Shown here piece by piece: positions 18,381 through 27,425 of a stretch of 48,352 nt of DNA; positions within the stretch are counted from its first letter, which is position 1; the number at the start of each line of letters is the position of its first letter. Below the pieces are notes generated by a model. It searched no databases, was not told where the DNA came from, and saw only the letters and a list, made by a program, of their open reading frames with translations. Both the position numbers and the translations under genes were made by a program. Origin of the DNA: Sulfurovum sp. (GTDB taxonomy: Bacteria > Campylobacterota > Campylobacteria > Campylobacterales > Sulfurovaceae); assembly GCA_020721345.1 (NCBI GenBank), contig DYMX01000009.1, positions 1-48,352 on the forward strand, in the 5' to 3' direction.

Positions 18381-18920
18381 TTAATACAATCCAAACTTAC
18401 CGTCGGCTCTTTTATACATTACTCTCATATTGCCGTCCGCATCATTAAACACGATAAACTGTCTGGACTTTTCTTCTTTTAAATGCTGCATTGCCTCGTC
18501 AATATCTATAGGTTTATGGTCATCTAAGTTCATAGGTACGATCTCTATCTCATCTTCGCTGGCTTCGATTTCGCCGACAGCCTCAGCATCAAGACCTAAG
18601 TCTCTAAAGCTCATGACTTTATGATTTTTTATCTTTTCACTACATCTTCCAAGCGTTTTTTTAACTCTCTCGATCGCTACATCTATGGCGCTATATACAT
18701 CTTTGTCTTTTTGAGAAACAACAATGGTATTTTTGTCTTTTAAATTGATAATAAATTCAACTTTATAGCCTTTTTTACCGTTTTTCTCTTCTGATGATAT
18801 AAGTGTTGAAGCTGAAATGATATCAAGATTGAATTTGTTAAGAGTGTCTATTGCGCTATTCGCATAGTCTTTTATAGCATCTGTCAGATCAAAATGTCGT
18901 CCTACAATACTTCTGTTCAT
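18381..18920 (-). CDS. hpf: Long-form ribosome hibernation promoting factor (HPF)
   Basis: 179 residues, the long (dimerising) type. The N-terminal S30AE fold (1-100: RHFDLTDAIKDYANSAIDTLNKF ... DVYSAIDVAIERVKKTL) binds the 30S decoding site. An acidic linker (EIEASEDEIEIVP) leads to the C-terminal dimerisation domain (MQHLKEEKSRQFIVFNDADGNMRVMYKRADGKFGLY), which pairs two 70S ribosomes into idle 100S. Single gene with AAAGGAG before its ATG. Confidence 0.94.
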   Translation of the reverse strand: MNRSIVGRHFDLTDAIKDYANSAIDTLNKFNLDIISASTLISSEEKNGKKGYKVEFIINLKDKNTIVVSQKDKDVYSAIDVAIERVKKTLGRCSEKIKNHKVMSFRDLGLDAEAVGEIEASEDEIEIVPMNLDDHKPIDIDEAMQHLKEEKSRQFIVFNDADGNMRVMYKRADGKFGLY

Positions 18921-19039: not shown

Positions 19040-19495
19040 CTATATTTTTTGCAGTGTTCTTCTATGATAAACGATAGGATTTGGGGATACAGCAGTATCA
19101 TTATAGGTAACATAAACATCAATGATTGCCGCCGCAACAGTATTATTTACCCCAAATGAAGTTACATCTGGATCTGCAGGCTTATTGCATGTCGCAGGAA
19201 CGCCTGTACCCCCGATATAAGATATAGCCGTACTAACACTGTAGCCGTCAGTTGCAGTTCCAACAGCACCGTTTATATTGTTTACGCAGTTATTGTTGGT
19301 TGCTCTATCATACTCTGTAATTGCCATGATCGCAAGTTCTGTATAGCTTTTTGCATAAAGCTGTGCTTGTTCTTTTCTATACTGCATTGTAGTACTCTGA
19401 GCAGTACTTGCTACCATATTGAGCGATAGTATAGCAATGGTTGCAAGTATCAGTATGACAAATATAGCCGTGACCATAGAAAATGCTTTTCTCAT
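19040..19495 (-). CDS. Minor pilin/pseudopilin-like protein lacking Glu5
   Basis: 151 residues. A class-III type leader MRKA is followed by a hydrophobic helix (FSMVTAIFVILILATIAIL). Mature residue 5 is Thr rather than the Glu that nearly all pilins have; in type II secretion this is the mark of GspK, which sits at the tip. The peptidase would cut after Ala4. Two Cys in the C-terminal domain may form a disulfide. Its ATG overlaps the stop of the preceding pilin gene (ATGA). Probably exported and assembled with the two pilins and the large surface protein. Confidence 0.72.
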   Translation of the reverse strand: MRKAFSMVTAIFVILILATIAILSLNMVASTAQSTTMQYRKEQAQLYAKSYTELAIMAITEYDRATNNNCVNNINGAVGTATDGYSVSTAISYIGGTGVPATCNKPADPDVTSFGVNNTVAAAIIDVYVTYNDTAVSPNPIVYHRRTLQKI

Positions 19496-20430
19496 CTTAT
19501 GACCGCCTTTTCTTTACATACGGATATAAAATCAGTCGTGCCTCCACCAATTGGCTGTTTGATACATATTTTTATCCTTATATCATTTTTTGATACAGGA
19601 TTTTGAGCAGCTTTAAAAACAGAAACATTTGTTGCTATTACTTGTCTTCCTATTCCTGCGGTATTAAAATTTTCTCCTCTCCAAGGCTGATAGCCATATC
19701 GTAGCTCAAGATCAAAAACATCATTTGTGCCATCTTGATTAATGTCTCTTTCATTCATTGGAACAAGAGCATAGGCGCTCCAAGCCACACCATACATATC
19801 AGCTGTAACCTTGGGAGTATTTGGCATAGCCAAACTTGTTCCCGTACTGCCGGTCATTGCAAATGCACATTTATTGTCATATGCTTGACTATTCATGCCC
19901 ATTGTATCCGGAGAATACCTTATTCCTCCCGGAGCACAGTTATCCGTTTTAAACAAAACTATAGCATCGCTAAGTCCTGCGCCTCCAAGATTTGTGACAA
20001 CAGTGCCGATATTATCCAAAGAACTTCCCGGTGTCGGACATAATGTTCTTGTAGAGTTTTGCACATCACAGTATCCGCTCCATCCTGGTGTTCCGGTAGC
20101 TTCAAAACTATCTCCGTCTGTACCTATCCACTCTACAACACGATCAGTTTGATCATTCTCATCTGCATCACCAAGCTGTATTATTCCTGTATTGTTTGTA
20201 TTTTTAAAAACAACACTCCATGGCAAGGCATAGCTTAAACGGTTTGATATCTGCTCCAATGCCAACTCGGACTTGAATGCCGCTACACTTGTAGCTTTTT
20301 GAGGAATGGTATTTTTAAAGACCTGAGCGATCGTATCCGCACTCATTGAAGCAACAATGCCTAATACCGTTATAACAAATACCAACTCGACCAAGCTGAA
20401 TGCTTTTCTAAAATTACAAATCTTTTTCAT
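19492..20430 (-). CDS. Prepilin-like protein with a Ca2+-type loop
   Basis: 312 residues. Leader MKKICNFRKA, cut after Ala10, then FSLVELVFVITVLGIVASM with Glu5 of the mature protein in place. The large globular part contains DINQDGTND (residues 229-237), which matches a DxNxDGxxD EF-hand-like calcium loop, and several Cys pairs. Size and position resemble PilW-type minor pilins, but I see no secure orthology. Overlaps both neighbours by ATGA, so translation is coupled through the whole operon. Confidence 0.75.
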   Translation of the reverse strand: MKKICNFRKAFSLVELVFVITVLGIVASMSADTIAQVFKNTIPQKATSVAAFKSELALEQISNRLSYALPWSVVFKNTNNTGIIQLGDADENDQTDRVVEWIGTDGDSFEATGTPGWSGYCDVQNSTRTLCPTPGSSLDNIGTVVTNLGGAGLSDAIVLFKTDNCAPGGIRYSPDTMGMNSQAYDNKCAFAMTGSTGTSLAMPNTPKVTADMYGVAWSAYALVPMNERDINQDGTNDVFDLELRYGYQPWRGENFNTAGIGRQVIATNVSVFKAAQNPVSKNDIRIKICIKQPIGGGTTDFISVCKEKAVIR

Positions 20431-21107
20431 AATTGTTCTCTTGTTGCCGCTACCGATGAGCCTATATTGCAGCTAAATCCGTTTAATGTTATACTTTTCT
20501 CAGCCATTGCCGTTGAAGTAAGAGTAGTGGTTACTCTTTTGATGTTTGTAGTACCGCCAGCTGTTACCACGGGATCAAAATTAAAAGTGGTTGCGGCTCC
20601 AAGCGTTATGTTATCAGGATAGTATTTGACAGCGGTAGCCATTACTACAGTAGTATCCGCATAGTCTCCGCTATAAGTTGGATTTGTCTGATCCTGATAA
20701 ACTGCAACCTGAGCTGCCAATCCATCATAATCACCTATATCATCAGTGCCGCTTATAGTTGCTATTGTTGCTTGTTGCGCTATGATATCTCTTGCGCCAG
20801 AGTTTAGCGGAGAAGGCAATTGATTTCTGCCGCTTCTAGCCGAAAAACTTACTGAATCTGTTGAGAGTATGGTTGTTTCTGTTGCCGGATTTACAAGCTT
20901 ATTGTATGCGCTGTCCCATGGTTTTGACATTATGAGATTTATATTTGATGCAACTTCTGAAACAGACTCTTGCATCATGGCACTTTGACTCCCTTTTACG
21001 GTTTGAGATGTGATCATAGGAATTGCAAGCATTGCTATACCCATAACAACTATAGAAAATATCAATTCTATCATTGCTACGGCTTTTCTTGTGCTTTTCA
21101 TTGTCAT
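20427..21107 (-). CDS. Prepilin-like protein (PilV-like position)
   Basis: 226 residues from ATG 21107, which overlaps the stop of the large surface protein (TAATG); a TTG three codons upstream is possible. Leader ends RKA, mature start VAMIELIFSIVVMGIAMLAIP with Glu5 present. The rest is Ser/Thr/Ala-rich without a recognised domain. It is the first of three prepilin genes behind the giant gene and is probably a minor pilin. Confidence 0.72.
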   Translation of the reverse strand: MTMKSTRKAVAMIELIFSIVVMGIAMLAIPMITSQTVKGSQSAMMQESVSEVASNINLIMSKPWDSAYNKLVNPATETTILSTDSVSFSARSGRNQLPSPLNSGARDIIAQQATIATISGTDDIGDYDGLAAQVAVYQDQTNPTYSGDYADTTVVMATAVKYYPDNITLGAATTFNFDPVVTAGGTTNIKRVTTTLTSTAMAEKSITLNGFSCNIGSSVAATREQL

Positions 21108-24100
21108 TACCAATTTAACCTATTTTTAGCATTACCTGAAGCCGGTTGGTTAACTACATTTCCAGTTTTTCCTTTACCCACCCAATTGTATCCTGTATCA
21201 ACAAAGTTAATAGCAAATTCAGGCAATCCGTTTTTATCTCTATCTTTATTATATCTGAGCCATATGCTAGGATCTACCTGAACTACAACTTTATTTGATC
21301 TCTCCGCAGGTCTTAAATATGCTATCTCGACATCAGGCGTGATGCCTGTCGTATTTATTGTATTGCTGTTGAACATGACATTTGCAGAAGGCGATATAGT
21401 AGGAGTTCCTTTTTCTTGACTTATCACTCTTAGCTCATCTATCTGTCCATCAGCTTCATTTACAGAATGACCGATTACTCTGTACCACGATGTATCAACA
21501 GCAGTAGTATCAAGAACTCCATTGTTTACCAATATTCCACCTGGAGCGCTTGGTAAATAAGCCAAAGTATTAAATTTTGTTTTAACACTATCATCTTGTA
21601 CTGATTTGCCATTTGGTAGATGTCTTTCAAGGTCGGTATAGACTCTACCGTAAATAAATTTAAACGAGTTATCTGCAATATCAACAACACCGCCGCTAAA
21701 GTACTCTTTTTCTTCGCCTATTTTATTTGTACTCACGCCGTCTCTCCAAGCCGTTACTTGAAGATTATCACTGCCTATCAGCGCTGAGCTCAGTTTAACA
21801 AACAGTATCTCTATAGGTCTGACTGCCACATAATATAGTTTATTGATATTGTATCTAAGGTCATAAACCAAATTTCCAAGAGATGCATCCAAAAAGTTAT
21901 CCTTGCTTGCTTGTGTTTGAATTATATCATCATAGTTGCTTCCGTCCGTTGTATCCTCTGTACTTTTTGTAACCACAGGGCTAGCAGATGAAAAACTTCC
22001 GCTATTGAAACTTTCGGCAAGATGTAATGAAGGAATGGTATCTCCGCCTTGCAGGATCGTTCCGTCCGTATTTTCCGCTTTTACATCTTTACCATCAAGC
22101 TGCGTAGTTGTGTACTGTGTAAATAGATTTACATTTTGCGCCATACATCCTGCAGTAAAGTTCGATACTGTATCGCCTTTGGCGTTTTTAGCTGCCATGG
22201 CTCCAGTAAACTGTGCTGCCATATTGTAATCTGAATCAACCTTATCAAGATTGTTCATATAAACCCATTTTGTTCCGTGAGCAGGATATGAACCGTACAC
22301 AATGCTTTGAATGTCAATTTTGGCAGGCACAAACTTAACTGGTATTTTGTTGAATTTGACGCCGCTATTTACTTCAAAAGACTGAACATCACAGCCAACT
22401 CCATTGATTCCCCCTGAAAGAATCGTACTATCTACCGAACAATCATCTCTTCCCGTTGAAACTGATGCTTTATATGGATATCTCGCCTGATCTACGAGCG
22501 TCCAATCTTTGTCCACTAAAACAACATCATAATTGCCAACATTATCATTTTCAAGTTTCCATCCAGAAGTTCCGACATCAAATCTTTTATGTGAACTGTC
22601 GGCGCAATTTGTTATATCTCCGCTATTATTTACAAGAGTATTGTTAAATTTAATGCCAAAAAACTCTTTTAGAGTATCAAATGTACTGTTTACAACATCT
22701 CTAGCATCGCTTGAAATTCTTCTAAAATAATATCCCGCGGGATTAGCTTGATCATTTGCGCTTTTTGCGACCATTTCTACTACATAATCATCCAAAACAC
22801 CGCTTATGAGATTGTGTATCAATGATGATAATGTATCATTTTTTTTGATTTCTAAGGCTTTACTTTTTGCGCTCAGCTCAACTCCATAAGGACGTACCGA
22901 GAAATTATCCCTTGAGCATATAGGTTGAGAATAAAACTTTCTTAAACATTGGTAACATTCTTCATCGATGGAACTGCTTCCACACTCTGTGTCACACCCG
23001 TCAACCGTTTTATAGTATGGATCATTAGCGTATAGATCTTTAAAACATGTGCCACTTGTATTTATGCAGTTGTTATTCTGCACGATATCATCAAGTTTCC
23101 CATCGCCGTTATAGTCTGCCACAAGCGCCCACATTCTGATACCGGCATTTCTCATTGCATATTTATTATCATCCGCACTAAATGGGAGGTCTGTCGTAAT
23201 ACTGTTTGCAAATTGACTAAAACGCCTTTGACCGTCACTCCATGTTTTTCCATTCGATGAATCTTCGCAAATCCTGTCGAAATTGTATTTATTTTCATCA
23301 TAGCTTCCAAGACTTTGGAATGACGGTATCTCAAAAGGTTCAACTTCTATGGCGCCGGTAAATGCTGTCCTGACCGTATATTCCCCGCTCCCGTCTTTTG
23401 TATAAGCTACCGCCTGTAAAGTATAATCCGTTCCTGTAACTTGCGTACTTAGAGCATAGTCTCCGGGACTAGCATTATACTTTTCAATATTGAACTGATA
23501 CCACATAGGATTGTATGTAAGTGTTCCAGGACAAACTTCAAGCGTTCCGTCACTTGTTGAATATGTATATTCCGTTAATGTTGTCTGGTCGTCTGCATCA
23601 AGAGCTAATGATGCGGTCACATCGACATTCAACTCCAAAGTTGAGCCATACAGCTTATCTGCATCAAAATTTGATATCGCATACAAGCTTTTAAATGGCT
23701 CTATGACTCCTTTTTCTCCTCCGCTTCCTGACTTATCGGTTCCTATATAATAAATCCCATCTACATTATCAATATATTCAGCTTCCTCATAAGCATAAAC
23801 ATCCGGATTTTGAACCCAGGCATCTGTAAAAGTAAGTTCAGGCGGATTTGATGATGTAGGAGAAGTTTTATCTAGCCAGTAAGCCTTCATGGAACTTTTT
23901 ACATATGGGAAGTCTCCTTCTAGGGATCTTATAAATACTTTTGACTGCAATGTTCCGTCATTTTTATGCGGTATAAATGTTCTATCTGTTGCATCTTTTT
24001 GCATCAATTCACCGTTTAGAAGCGCACTATAGTCATAGCATAGTTTTGGCAAATACAAGTCTGTTGAAAATCCAAATACGGCAGGAAAATAACCGTCTCC

Positions 24101-25549
24101 GTTACTTTTTAGAGTTATTTGTGTAGATGTTTGATTATTTGTGATAATATTTTGACCATTGGTGCCTACATTGAATGAATCTATATCTATACCTATCGTA
24201 TTGTGGCAGCTTGGACTTCTTGTATCAACATATGATCCATCATCGGTAACAGTGGCATTCATGATGTCATCCTGTGGATTTTTACTATCAGACAATTTGG
24301 TGGCCACACCTGCTTTATTCGTCAGCTGAATATAATCTCCGGCTGCCGTAACATCTCCTTCTCCTGCAAAAAACAAAAATTTAGAGTTAACATCATCGGC
24401 TATCGGAGTTTTAAACCCGCTCAATGTATATGTTTTTGATGTGAATACATCTACTCCATTATTGTCACTGGAAGAGATACCGACATATCCATCAAATATT
24501 GTTATATTTTTTGTTGTAGTATTTTTATTTTTATATATTACAACTATAGACCAAGCGCCATATGCACCACCTGTTGGTTTTCCGACTTGGCTTTTTACAT
24601 CTGCAACCATATATGTTGTGCCACTGACTCCTGCTTTAACATAATCAGTAACATCGGTCATGCCTTGATAATACCATCTTTTTTTTTCTGTGCCAAAATA
24701 TACCCAATTAAATTTATCGGCTGTCACGTCTGTATAAGTTCCCATTGCCGGTGTTTTTAGCTTCACTGTTTGTGAAGCATCCTGCTCTGCTTGATGGGTC
24801 GCATAACCATCAGAAAACTCATAGTACCCCTGCCAATACAGACCTGCCCAGACTATATCGTCACTAGTGGCACCTGTAGGCAGATTTAATTCAGCACTTG
24901 TCGAGTTTGATGTAGCGCCATTTGAATCTATATCAATATATTCTACATTTATATTATTATTTCTCGTATTGTCTGCCGCGCAACTGTTCGTAGCAGCATT
25001 TCTCATAATAGAATTTCCGATTATCTTCATATCTCCTCTGATATTTGCTTTTTTTACTATAGTGTAGTCTCTTGTATTTGAAGAGGAGTATGGAGATAAT
25101 GTATCATCATTTAGAATTTTTCCGATTCCTGCATCATCACTGATTGTCACAGGATGAGAGGAAGAACTAGAAGATTTAGCACTTGAAAGTCTTACATTAA
25201 ATATTTCATCTGACTCATAAGTTGTGTCTGCTATTACCGTAACATTAAATGTTTTTCCGCTACAGCCCCCGGTTGTTGTTGGCTTTATGCTAATAGTACC
25301 GCTTGTTGATGTATAATCGCTACCTGCTGTTGCGGTACTGTTGCTTGTAGCATAATTTACGCTATATGTTACATTTTTGTAGCATTCTCCAGATAATGAA
25401 ACTGTAAAAGTGAAAGTTGTATTAGCACCACTTCCCTCATTCTTGGTTACATCATTTATACTAAAACTAGAATTGGCGCCAAAACCAAAAACTGTCCCAA
25501 AAAATATTATAAAAGCTATAATTCTTTTTAAAATTGATAATATATTCAT
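21107..25549 (-). CDS. Giant secreted surface protein with Calx-beta domain, probable pilus-tip adhesin
   Basis: 1,480 residues with a signal peptide (cut near GFGANS, about residue 24). Residues ~28-150 are a Calx-beta domain (YATSNSTATAGSDYTSTSGTI ... IADTTYESDEIFNV ... DDAGIGKILNDD), a calcium-binding beta fold. Residues ~180-480 look like a DUF3344-type beta region (DDIVWAGLYWQGYY). DYNGDGKLDD (812-821) is a calcium-loop motif of the PilY1 kind. A Cys-rich stretch (about 825-865, CINTSGTC ... CDTECG ... CYQCL) follows. No membrane anchor or autotransporter barrel is seen at the C-terminus. GGAGG stands 5 nt from the ATG. As first gene of an operon with three prepilin genes it is a candidate tip adhesin; function not shown. 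Confidence 0.78.
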   Translation of the reverse strand: MNILSILKRIIAFIIFFGTVFGFGANSSFSINDVTKNEGSGANTTFTFTVSLSGECYKNVTYSVNYATSNSTATAGSDYTSTSGTISIKPTTTGGCSGKTFNVTVIADTTYESDEIFNVRLSSAKSSSSSSHPVTISDDAGIGKILNDDTLSPYSSSNTRDYTIVKKANIRGDMKIIGNSIMRNAATNSCAADNTRNNNINVEYIDIDSNGATSNSTSAELNLPTGATSDDIVWAGLYWQGYYEFSDGYATHQAEQDASQTVKLKTPAMGTYTDVTADKFNWVYFGTEKKRWYYQGMTDVTDYVKAGVSGTTYMVADVKSQVGKPTGGAYGAWSIVVIYKNKNTTTKNITIFDGYVGISSSDNNGVDVFTSKTYTLSGFKTPIADDVNSKFLFFAGEGDVTAAGDYIQLTNKAGVATKLSDSKNPQDDIMNATVTDDGSYVDTRSPSCHNTIGIDIDSFNVGTNGQNIITNNQTSTQITLKSNGDGYFPAVFGFSTDLYLPKLCYDYSALLNGELMQKDATDRTFIPHKNDGTLQSKVFIRSLEGDFPYVKSSMKAYWLDKTSPTSSNPPELTFTDAWVQNPDVYAYEEAEYIDNVDGIYYIGTDKSGSGGEKGVIEPFKSLYAISNFDADKLYGSTLELNVDVTASLALDADDQTTLTEYTYSTSDGTLEVCPGTLTYNPMWYQFNIEKYNASPGDYALSTQVTGTDYTLQAVAYTKDGSGEYTVRTAFTGAIEVEPFEIPSFQSLGSYDENKYNFDRICEDSSNGKTWSDGQRRFSQFANSITTDLPFSADDNKYAMRNAGIRMWALVADYNGDGKLDDIVQNNNCINTSGTCFKDLYANDPYYKTVDGCDTECGSSSIDEECYQCLRKFYSQPICSRDNFSVRPYGVELSAKSKALEIKKNDTLSSLIHNLISGVLDDYVVEMVAKSANDQANPAGYYFRRISSDARDVVNSTFDTLKEFFGIKFNNTLVNNSGDITNCADSSHKRFDVGTSGWKLENDNVGNYDVVLVDKDWTLVDQARYPYKASVSTGRDDCSVDSTILSGGINGVGCDVQSFEVNSGVKFNKIPVKFVPAKIDIQSIVYGSYPAHGTKWVYMNNLDKVDSDYNMAAQFTGAMAAKNAKGDTVSNFTAGCMAQNVNLFTQYTTTQLDGKDVKAENTDGTILQGGDTIPSLHLAESFNSGSFSSASPVVTKSTEDTTDGSNYDDIIQTQASKDNFLDASLGNLVYDLRYNINKLYYVAVRPIEILFVKLSSALIGSDNLQVTAWRDGVSTNKIGEEKEYFSGGVVDIADNSFKFIYGRVYTDLERHLPNGKSVQDDSVKTKFNTLAYLPSAPGGILVNNGVLDTTAVDTSWYRVIGHSVNEADGQIDELRVISQEKGTPTISPSANVMFNSNTINTTGITPDVEIAYLRPAERSNKVVVQVDPSIWLRYNKDRDKNGLPEFAINFVDTGYNWVGKGKTGNVVNQPASGNAKNRLNW

Positions 25550-25598
25550 CTTGCACCTCCTAAGGCACCTTTAAAACTCCGTATTTATACCTATTTCT

Positions 25599-25631: not shown

Positions 25632-27425
25632 TCACGCTCTCATCATAGCATTTTTAACTATCTCTTCATCATTTGCCATATCAAACCATCTAAATTTCTG
25701 TCCGCTCTGCATGGAGCCCTCTAGTATATCGCCGCTGTTTCTAAATTCTAGATCAAGCCTTGCTATATCAAAACCGCTTGTAGTTTTGGCAAATTTGGCA
25801 AGTCTTTCATTTTGTTTGTTATGGGTATATAGATAACACCGGCTTTTTAGTCCAAGCCTGCCCACTCTGCCTCTGAGTTGATGAAGTGTAGCAAGTCCAA
25901 GCCTCTCAGCCCCTACAATAACTACAAGTGTTAAACGAGGTAAAGAGATACCGACTTCAACAACGGTAGTTGCAAGAAGAATATCCCCTTTTTCTCTAAA
26001 GGATAGTAAAACCTCATCTTTCTCTTTATCTTTACCGTGAGTCACATATACATTTTCAAAGTTCTTTTCCCAAAAACCTCGCGCCTCATCTATGGAACTG
26101 TACGGTATCTGTTCGCTTTTCTCCACAAGAGGATAAACGATTAGAACTTGATGATGCACGGCTATCTCGTCTCTGATGCAAGAGAGTAAAAAAGGAAGAT
26201 CCTCTTTTGATATGATACTTGTGGATATATCCTTATCAAACGGTGTTGTAGTTATCAAGCTCACATCTACAAGGGCTGAGTCCATCATTGCCTGAGTTCT
26301 GGGTATCGGAGTGGCTGAGAATTGGAGCATATGAACCTTTTTATCTTTTTGTGAGACAAGCTTGGATAGTAAATTTCTCTGGTTTGTCCCAAAGCGATGC
26401 TGTTCATCAACCATTACTAAATCGATTTGAGGCAAATCATCTTTGTAGAGCAACGCATGAGTACCTATGATAAAGTCGGCATCCTTATGATCTCCTTTAT
26501 TGTTGCCTTGCATAACAAGCGCTATCTTTATGCTTTTTGGCAAAAATTTAACAGCTTCTTCATATAGCTGTAGCGCTAAAAGTGATGTGGGAGCCATCAA
26601 TATGCTCTTACTAGGCAATGCCATCACGGCGCTTGCAAGTATTACTATAGTCTTACCGCTTCCGACATCTCCGATAATAACTCTTTTGGCAGCCTTGAGA
26701 GGATTTGAGAGGTCAAGCTTTATCTCTTTTATAACATTGCGCTGTTCATTGGTCAGCCGAAATGGAAGCGAATCTACAAAAGAACTTATATCATTTGTAA
26801 GCGCTGTGCTTGGCGGAAAATCAACTCTTTTGCCTTTTAGTTTCTTAAAATGATTGTATGCTTCTATGATTTTTAGTATTTTGACTATATCGCTTCTATG
26901 TGCTTTATGCGACAAAATATCACTAAGTTTTTTTGGAAAATGCAGCATTAGTATAGTTTGAATTTCCTCTTCACTTAAACCTTCTTTTTTCAAATTTTCG
27001 TAATTGATAAGTCTGCCGATCATCTGCAAAATATCACTATTTTTAAATGTTGTCTTGTACTTAGGCGTTATTTTATCTATCGTTGTGATTTTTTTTGGCT
27101 GAGATAGCTGCAAAAAGCCGTTAAACTGCGTTAGCTTGCCTTTGATAAAAAGCTCAGCTCCAACACTAAAAACAGTGTAATGATAAGGGGTAACTTTAAA
27201 AAGTGTTGCAGTTATAACTCTTTTGAATTTTGGCAAAAATAGATTTATCTGAAGTTTTTCGCCTAATTTTTTAACATTTTCAACACGAGCTAAGACAACG
27301 ATCTCCTCTCCAACGATCAAAGCTTCCGACAAGGTCATATCGTCATATTGGGCGGGAATCAAAAGCGCCAAATCCAACAATGATGAAAACTTTATTTTAG
27401 AAAGTATCTCTTTTTGTTTCAGCAT
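25632..27425 (-). CDS. recG: ATP-dependent DNA helicase RecG
   Basis: 597 residues, the shortened form usual in Campylobacterota. RecG remodels stalled forks and Holliday junctions. An N-terminal OB/wedge part is followed by the helicase core: GDVGSGKTI (Walker A), MVDEQHRFG (Walker B), FSATPIPRTQ (motif III), then VVEVGISLPR and QLRGRVGRL in the second domain. AGAGG lies 6 nt before the ATG. The 214-bp gap upstream holds a repeat (R2). Confidence 0.96.
   Translation of the reverse strand: MLKQKEILSKIKFSSLLDLALLIPAQYDDMTLSEALIVGEEIVVLARVENVKKLGEKLQINLFLPKFKRVITATLFKVTPYHYTVFSVGAELFIKGKLTQFNGFLQLSQPKKITTIDKITPKYKTTFKNSDILQMIGRLINYENLKKEGLSEEEIQTILMLHFPKKLSDILSHKAHRSDIVKILKIIEAYNHFKKLKGKRVDFPPSTALTNDISSFVDSLPFRLTNEQRNVIKEIKLDLSNPLKAAKRVIIGDVGSGKTIVILASAVMALPSKSILMAPTSLLALQLYEEAVKFLPKSIKIALVMQGNNKGDHKDADFIIGTHALLYKDDLPQIDLVMVDEQHRFGTNQRNLLSKLVSQKDKKVHMLQFSATPIPRTQAMMDSALVDVSLITTTPFDKDISTSIISKEDLPFLLSCIRDEIAVHHQVLIVYPLVEKSEQIPYSSIDEARGFWEKNFENVYVTHGKDKEKDEVLLSFREKGDILLATTVVEVGISLPRLTLVVIVGAERLGLATLHQLRGRVGRLGLKSRCYLYTHNKQNERLAKFAKTTSGFDIARLDLEFRNSGDILEGSMQSGQKFRWFDMANDEEIVKNAMMRA

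Follow-up and report, generated by a model that had tools for sequence, protein, structure and literature searches.

The MSHA genes of V. cholerae form two operons, mshI-F and mshB-Q, and mshQ is given there without a function (PMC4624765). MshQ is also listed among the MSHA components as a protein of unknown function (PMC9815625), and PMC7439477 cites by title a study that deals with MshQ in the piliation and biofilm of Aeromonas. In the published model of MSH systems, mshE, mshG, mshL, mshM and mshA are mandatory and several loci with loners are allowed, mshA being permitted as a loner; such systems were detected in Epsilonproteobacteria, almost always as one locus and usually without a prepilin peptidase (PMC6668835). 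Minor-pilin complexes are located at the tip and capped by a subunit that lacks Glu5, and the tip protein PilY1 is modular (PMC10191384). In Campylobacter jejuni, cj1474c-cj1471c correspond to ctsD (pore), ctsP (NTPase), ctsX and ctsE, and the locus number of ctsT (cj1077) directly follows that of proC (cj1076) (PMC8308473).

Here, we analysed a stretch of 48,352 nucleotides from a Sulfurovum genome, referred to below as the window, which carries a giant gene followed by three prepilin genes. We propose that this operon probably encodes the tip of a dispersed MSHA-type type IV pilus, with an MshQ-family giant placed on a complex of the three minor pilins PV, PW and PX.

The operon and its prepilins

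The host is a Sulfurovaceae genome. The preliminary description had seen in the window an operon of an exported 1,480-residue protein and three prepilin-like genes, and both the four ORFs and the prepilin signals are confirmed. The four ORFs are tightly coupled and all lie on the minus strand. The operon and its neighbours are organized as follows:

21107..25549, minus strand: MshQ-like giant, 1480 aa, with a Sec-type signal sequence (identified by eye)
20427..21113, minus strand: PV, prepilin at the PilV/MshD position, 228 aa, cleavage site KA^VAMIE
19492..20430, minus strand: PW, prepilin at the PilW/MshO position, 312 aa, cleavage site KA^FSLVE
19040..19495, minus strand: PX, prepilin at the PilX/GspK/MshP position, 151 aa, cleavage site KA^FSMVT, lacking Glu5
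25556..25561, minus strand: Shine-Dalgarno-like AGGAGG upstream of the ATG of the giant (read by eye)
18381..18920, minus strand: ribosome hibernation-promoting factor (S30AE), outside the system, often the downstream neighbour of the operon in relatives
25632..27425, minus strand: RecG-like helicase, outside the system, near the operon in many genomes

The overlaps of 4-7 bp initially reported between these genes hold in part. The PV/PW and PW/PX junctions overlap by 4 bp each (ATGA), but the 7 bp at the giant/PV junction are obtained only with the called TTG start of PV. With the ATG of the TAATG at the stop codon of the giant, which is the likely start of PV, this overlap is reduced to 1 bp. 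In several relatives, proC and in some of them also fliW are found directly upstream of the operon (L041:11645-12403, L054:5298-6460, L062:10913-11659, L034:13592-14338, L048:5659-6048). A search of plasmid DNA gave no matches.

The basic leader, the A/G^ site and the hydrophobic stretch of a class III signal are present in PV, PW and PX, which are predicted substrates of a prepilin peptidase. PW scores above the Pfam N_methyl cut-off, PV falls below it and matches type IV PilV (E=6.9e-6, under that model's own cut-off), and PX weakly resembles GspK (E=4.9e-4). Comparison of the globular parts of these proteins with single Aeromonas MshD, MshO and MshP sequences revealed no detectable signal. 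Since PX lacks Glu5, it is the kind of subunit that caps minor-pilin complexes (PMC10191384).

The filament machine of the genome

The 1.24-Mb genome is 98.9% complete and encodes a single copy each of a platform protein, an extension ATPase, a secretin, a prepilin peptidase and a PilT-like ATPase. This single machine is therefore the sole candidate to handle the PV, PW and PX prepilins. The genes of the platform, the ATPase and the secretin belong to one cluster with the order I-J-K-L-M-N-E-G, and the same order is observed in the relatives examined. The secretin scores above the MshL equivalog cut-off (TIGR02519, 253.5 vs 250.2 bits). We compared the cluster with the MSHA locus of Aeromonas caviae, an unannotated record in which genes were assigned from their position and from DUF6701. 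In phmmer searches, L, E and G find counterparts there, and the profiles of K and M match the ORFs located where MshK and MshM are expected, all in the same order; the profiles of I, J and N have no match in this locus. Counterparts of mshE, mshG, mshL and mshM, which are mandatory in the model of PMC6668835, are thus all present and match the Aeromonas locus in order. Furthermore, contig C28 encodes three major-type pilins with PF07963 matches and without an MshA-specific match, and C13 encodes a candidate MshC-like pilin. Comparison of the family of the latter with Aeromonas MshC gave 57.9% (E=1e-4), and the motif FDxxGRP, noted by eye, is common to both. The pilus genes are scattered over C2, C13, C22, C24 (the window) and C28 rather than gathered in the single locus that is typical, though not strictly required, for the MSHA type, and we read this dispersal as a variant of the MSHA-type layout. 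The only type IV filament machine of this genome is of the MSHA type.

The same machine might serve mainly for DNA uptake, with the giant as the tip protein of a competence pilus and the Cts system of C. jejuni as a reduced relative. The order ctsD-ctsP-ctsX-ctsE is similar to L-M-N-E in the cluster described here (PMC8308473), and proC, the numerical neighbour of ctsT, is found ahead of the operon in several relatives. However, ctsT encodes only 100 aa, and we consider this assignment unlikely. DNA uptake would be compatible with adhesion. A type II secretion-like pseudopilus, with the giant secreted as a substrate and not displayed, appears quite improbable. The weak resemblance of PX to GspK and the binding of effectors by T2SS tip complexes (PMC10191384) would fit such a system, but the secretin that passes the MshL cut-off stays far below that of GspD (164.5/351), and the genome carries a PilT-like ATPase together with three major-type pilins. 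The other type II secretion equivalog cut-offs are missed as well (GspE 534.8/630, GspF 255.6/424).

The giant: conservation, family and domains

The genes of the giant and of the minor pilins form one unit, which agrees with the likeness to a minor-pilin/PilY1 tip complex with the giant gene first that had been pointed out before. Among the named loci, which are best matches and hence a non-random sample, 59 of the 63 informative ones (at least 2.6 kb of downstream sequence) keep the order giant-PV-PW-PX, some with a fourth, MshC-like prepilin, and two further loci have their pilins about 5 kb away from the giant. Homologues are thus not regularly found without pilin genes, which the preliminary description had named as the observation that would contradict it. 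PV lies downstream of the giant in 37 of the 40 fetched loci; of the exceptions, L065 is cut off by the end of its contig, and no pilin genes adjoin the giant in L050 and L058.

Within the order, a search with the full-length giant matched 129 of 299 genomes, some of these matches covering only Calx-beta or a different shared domain. With a profile built from the C-terminal half of the giant, 202 genomes were matched. Strong matches of PW (E<1e-15, a threshold read from the list) occur in 211 of the 299. Cross-tabulated by hand, 198 genomes have both the C-terminal half and PW, four have the giant only (G011, G032, G074, G135), 13 have PW only and 84 have neither. Conservation of the operon extends over most of the order. 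All named relatives are Campylobacterota, the nearest being Sulfurovum sp. clone C5 (45%).

Several loci have particular arrangements. L044 carries two tandem giant genes before the pilins, which could reflect a duplication of the tip protein. The distance of about 5 kb between the giant and its downstream pilins in L158 and L185 would accommodate a second giant. The giants of L050, L058 and L187 (titled Nautiliaceae) have no adjoining pilin genes, and PW relatives are located elsewhere in those genomes (e.g. G033:C6:38975-39967).

In Aeromonas MshQ, the C-terminal part corresponds to DUF6701 (PF20419; 6.3e-99). Several orthologous giants, a number of which lie at the operon locus, match this domain above the Pfam cut-off, up to 5.2e-24, and the giant of the window itself has no significant match to DUF6701. 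Giants with and without a DUF6701 hit form one family (hhalign, 1.6e-78 over the C-terminal part). Compared with Aeromonas MshQ, those with a hit reach a probability of 90.7%, and those without a hit, taken alone, 1.2%, that is, no match. By transitivity, the giant of the window is therefore assigned through its orthologues to the DUF6701/MshQ family. With a machine of the MSHA type and a giant related to MshQ, the earlier idea of a new type of pilus tip finds no support. In Aeromonas caviae KAM479, the coding region of mshQ (L191:17896-24432) is split; an ORF on the opposite strand (21162-22322) may represent an insertion.

Three regions are distinguished in the giant:

residues 40-138: Calx-beta domain (E=3.3e-11)
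residues about 150-520: conserved beta-sandwich domain, structure model confident (pLDDT 91.5)
residues about 640-1480: DUF6701-like C-terminal half, structure model moderate (pLDDT 71.6)

PDB fold searches with the models of the 150-520 domain and of the C-terminal part gave generic beta-sandwich or Ig-adhesin likeness with low TM-scores, and the fold of these domains is therefore left unassigned. The 150-520 domain also occurs in plasmid surface proteins of Thermus and Deinococcus that have no annotated pilin genes adjoining, so that its presence does not by itself indicate a pilus. Among homologues, the N-terminal extension varies from 16 to 813 aa, the added domains being typical surface modules, and the remainder of the protein is conserved. 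The giant of the window ends in NRLNW-stop. A terminal Trp is present in 62 of 70 giants from the named loci and in 38 of 41 giants of the genome set, two partly overlapping sets of genomes, compared with a background of 6/272 in other ORFs. We do not regard this Trp as a side effect of the TGG-TAATG gene overlap, as it is retained in L050 and L058, which have no pilin gene downstream. The other 8 of the 70 named-locus giants end in (D/E)Y(T/A/S)P(A/S)xR; the two endings suggest that there may be two docking subtypes.

The putative calcium-binding features reported earlier are present, namely the Calx-beta domain and the loop strings of the giant (DYNGDGKLDD) and of PW (DINQDGTND, at residue 229), but their proposed role in calcium control is not borne out by conservation. 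The position of the giant's loop is occupied in most homologues by variable short loops such as DENGT and not by DxDxDG. A calcium-controlled pair of adhesin and pilin, to which the DxNxDG-like loops in both proteins, the Calx-beta domain and the retention of the pilin loop within one genus would be suited, is very improbable, since Calx-beta is found in just 6/33 giant homologues, the motif of the giant arises in 8.9% of shuffles and the DxxxDGxND loop of the pilin was seen in only three sequences of that genus (window, L041 and L043). By the shuffling measure, the motif of the giant is unremarkable, and that of the pilin, at 0.65%, is less expected by chance. Calcium does not appear to be the defining feature of the operon.

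The proposed pilus tip and known systems

In the MSHA-type tip that we favour, PX, PW and PV would assemble into the complex that primes the pilus and forms its tip. The giant would be exported by the Sec pathway and then dock on this complex via its conserved C-terminal half and the terminal Trp, and its interchangeable N-terminal modules, here Calx-beta, could bind surfaces. The pilus would be built and retracted by the prepilin peptidase, the MshE-like extension ATPase, the MshG-like platform, the MshL-type secretin and the PilT-like ATPase, all encoded elsewhere in the genome. The sequences show the genes, their conservation, the type of the machine and the link to the MshQ family; tip location, docking, adhesion and retraction are what we infer. 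More broadly, it is possible, though doubtful, that MshQ/DUF6701 proteins are the general PilY1 equivalent of the MSHA class, modular and docking on a minor pilin without Glu5 via a C-terminal peptide (Trp here), and that the Cts DNA-uptake machine of Campylobacter descends from such a system and has lost this tip protein. The spread of this family over most of the order, its near-constant minor-pilin neighbours, variable N-terminal modules and fixed C terminus provide a concrete hypothesis for the function of MshQ and its docking site, and this hypothesis comes from genomes that have no type IV filament besides the MSHA-type machine.

The Cts system of C. jejuni shares with the Sulfurovum genome the gene order secretin-NTPase-X-ATPase and the proC neighbourhood, as judged from gene order and locus numbers only; in contrast, its published list contains no giant, and ctsT is short (PMC8308473). 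The resemblance to PilY1/PilC1 with PilVWX of type IVa pili concerns a large modular exported protein, co-operonic with PilV-, PilW- and PilX-like pilins, whose N terminus is variable and C terminus conserved. Unlike PilY1/PilC1, the giant has a C-terminal half of the DUF6701 type and its gene comes first. The PilY1 propeller PF05567 was not found in the giant and was matched in none of 31 genomes, a search that had no positive control, since no control genome gave a match either.

Compared with the MSHA pilus of Vibrio, Shewanella and Aeromonas (mshI-G, mshBACDOPQ), the Sulfurovum loci are dispersed on at least five contigs, the giant gene is first and not last, the giant has a terminal Trp, and the genome encodes a prepilin peptidase of its own, with no further type IV filament found in it. 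The 150-520 domain was not detected in Aeromonas MshQ, as judged from a Pfam search in which the N-terminal piece of MshQ gave no match. Both systems have the order I-J-K-L-M-N-E-G, an MshL-type secretin and pilins at the D, O and P positions together with a giant assigned to the DUF6701 family, and the Sulfurovum genome has a candidate counterpart of the MshC pilin.
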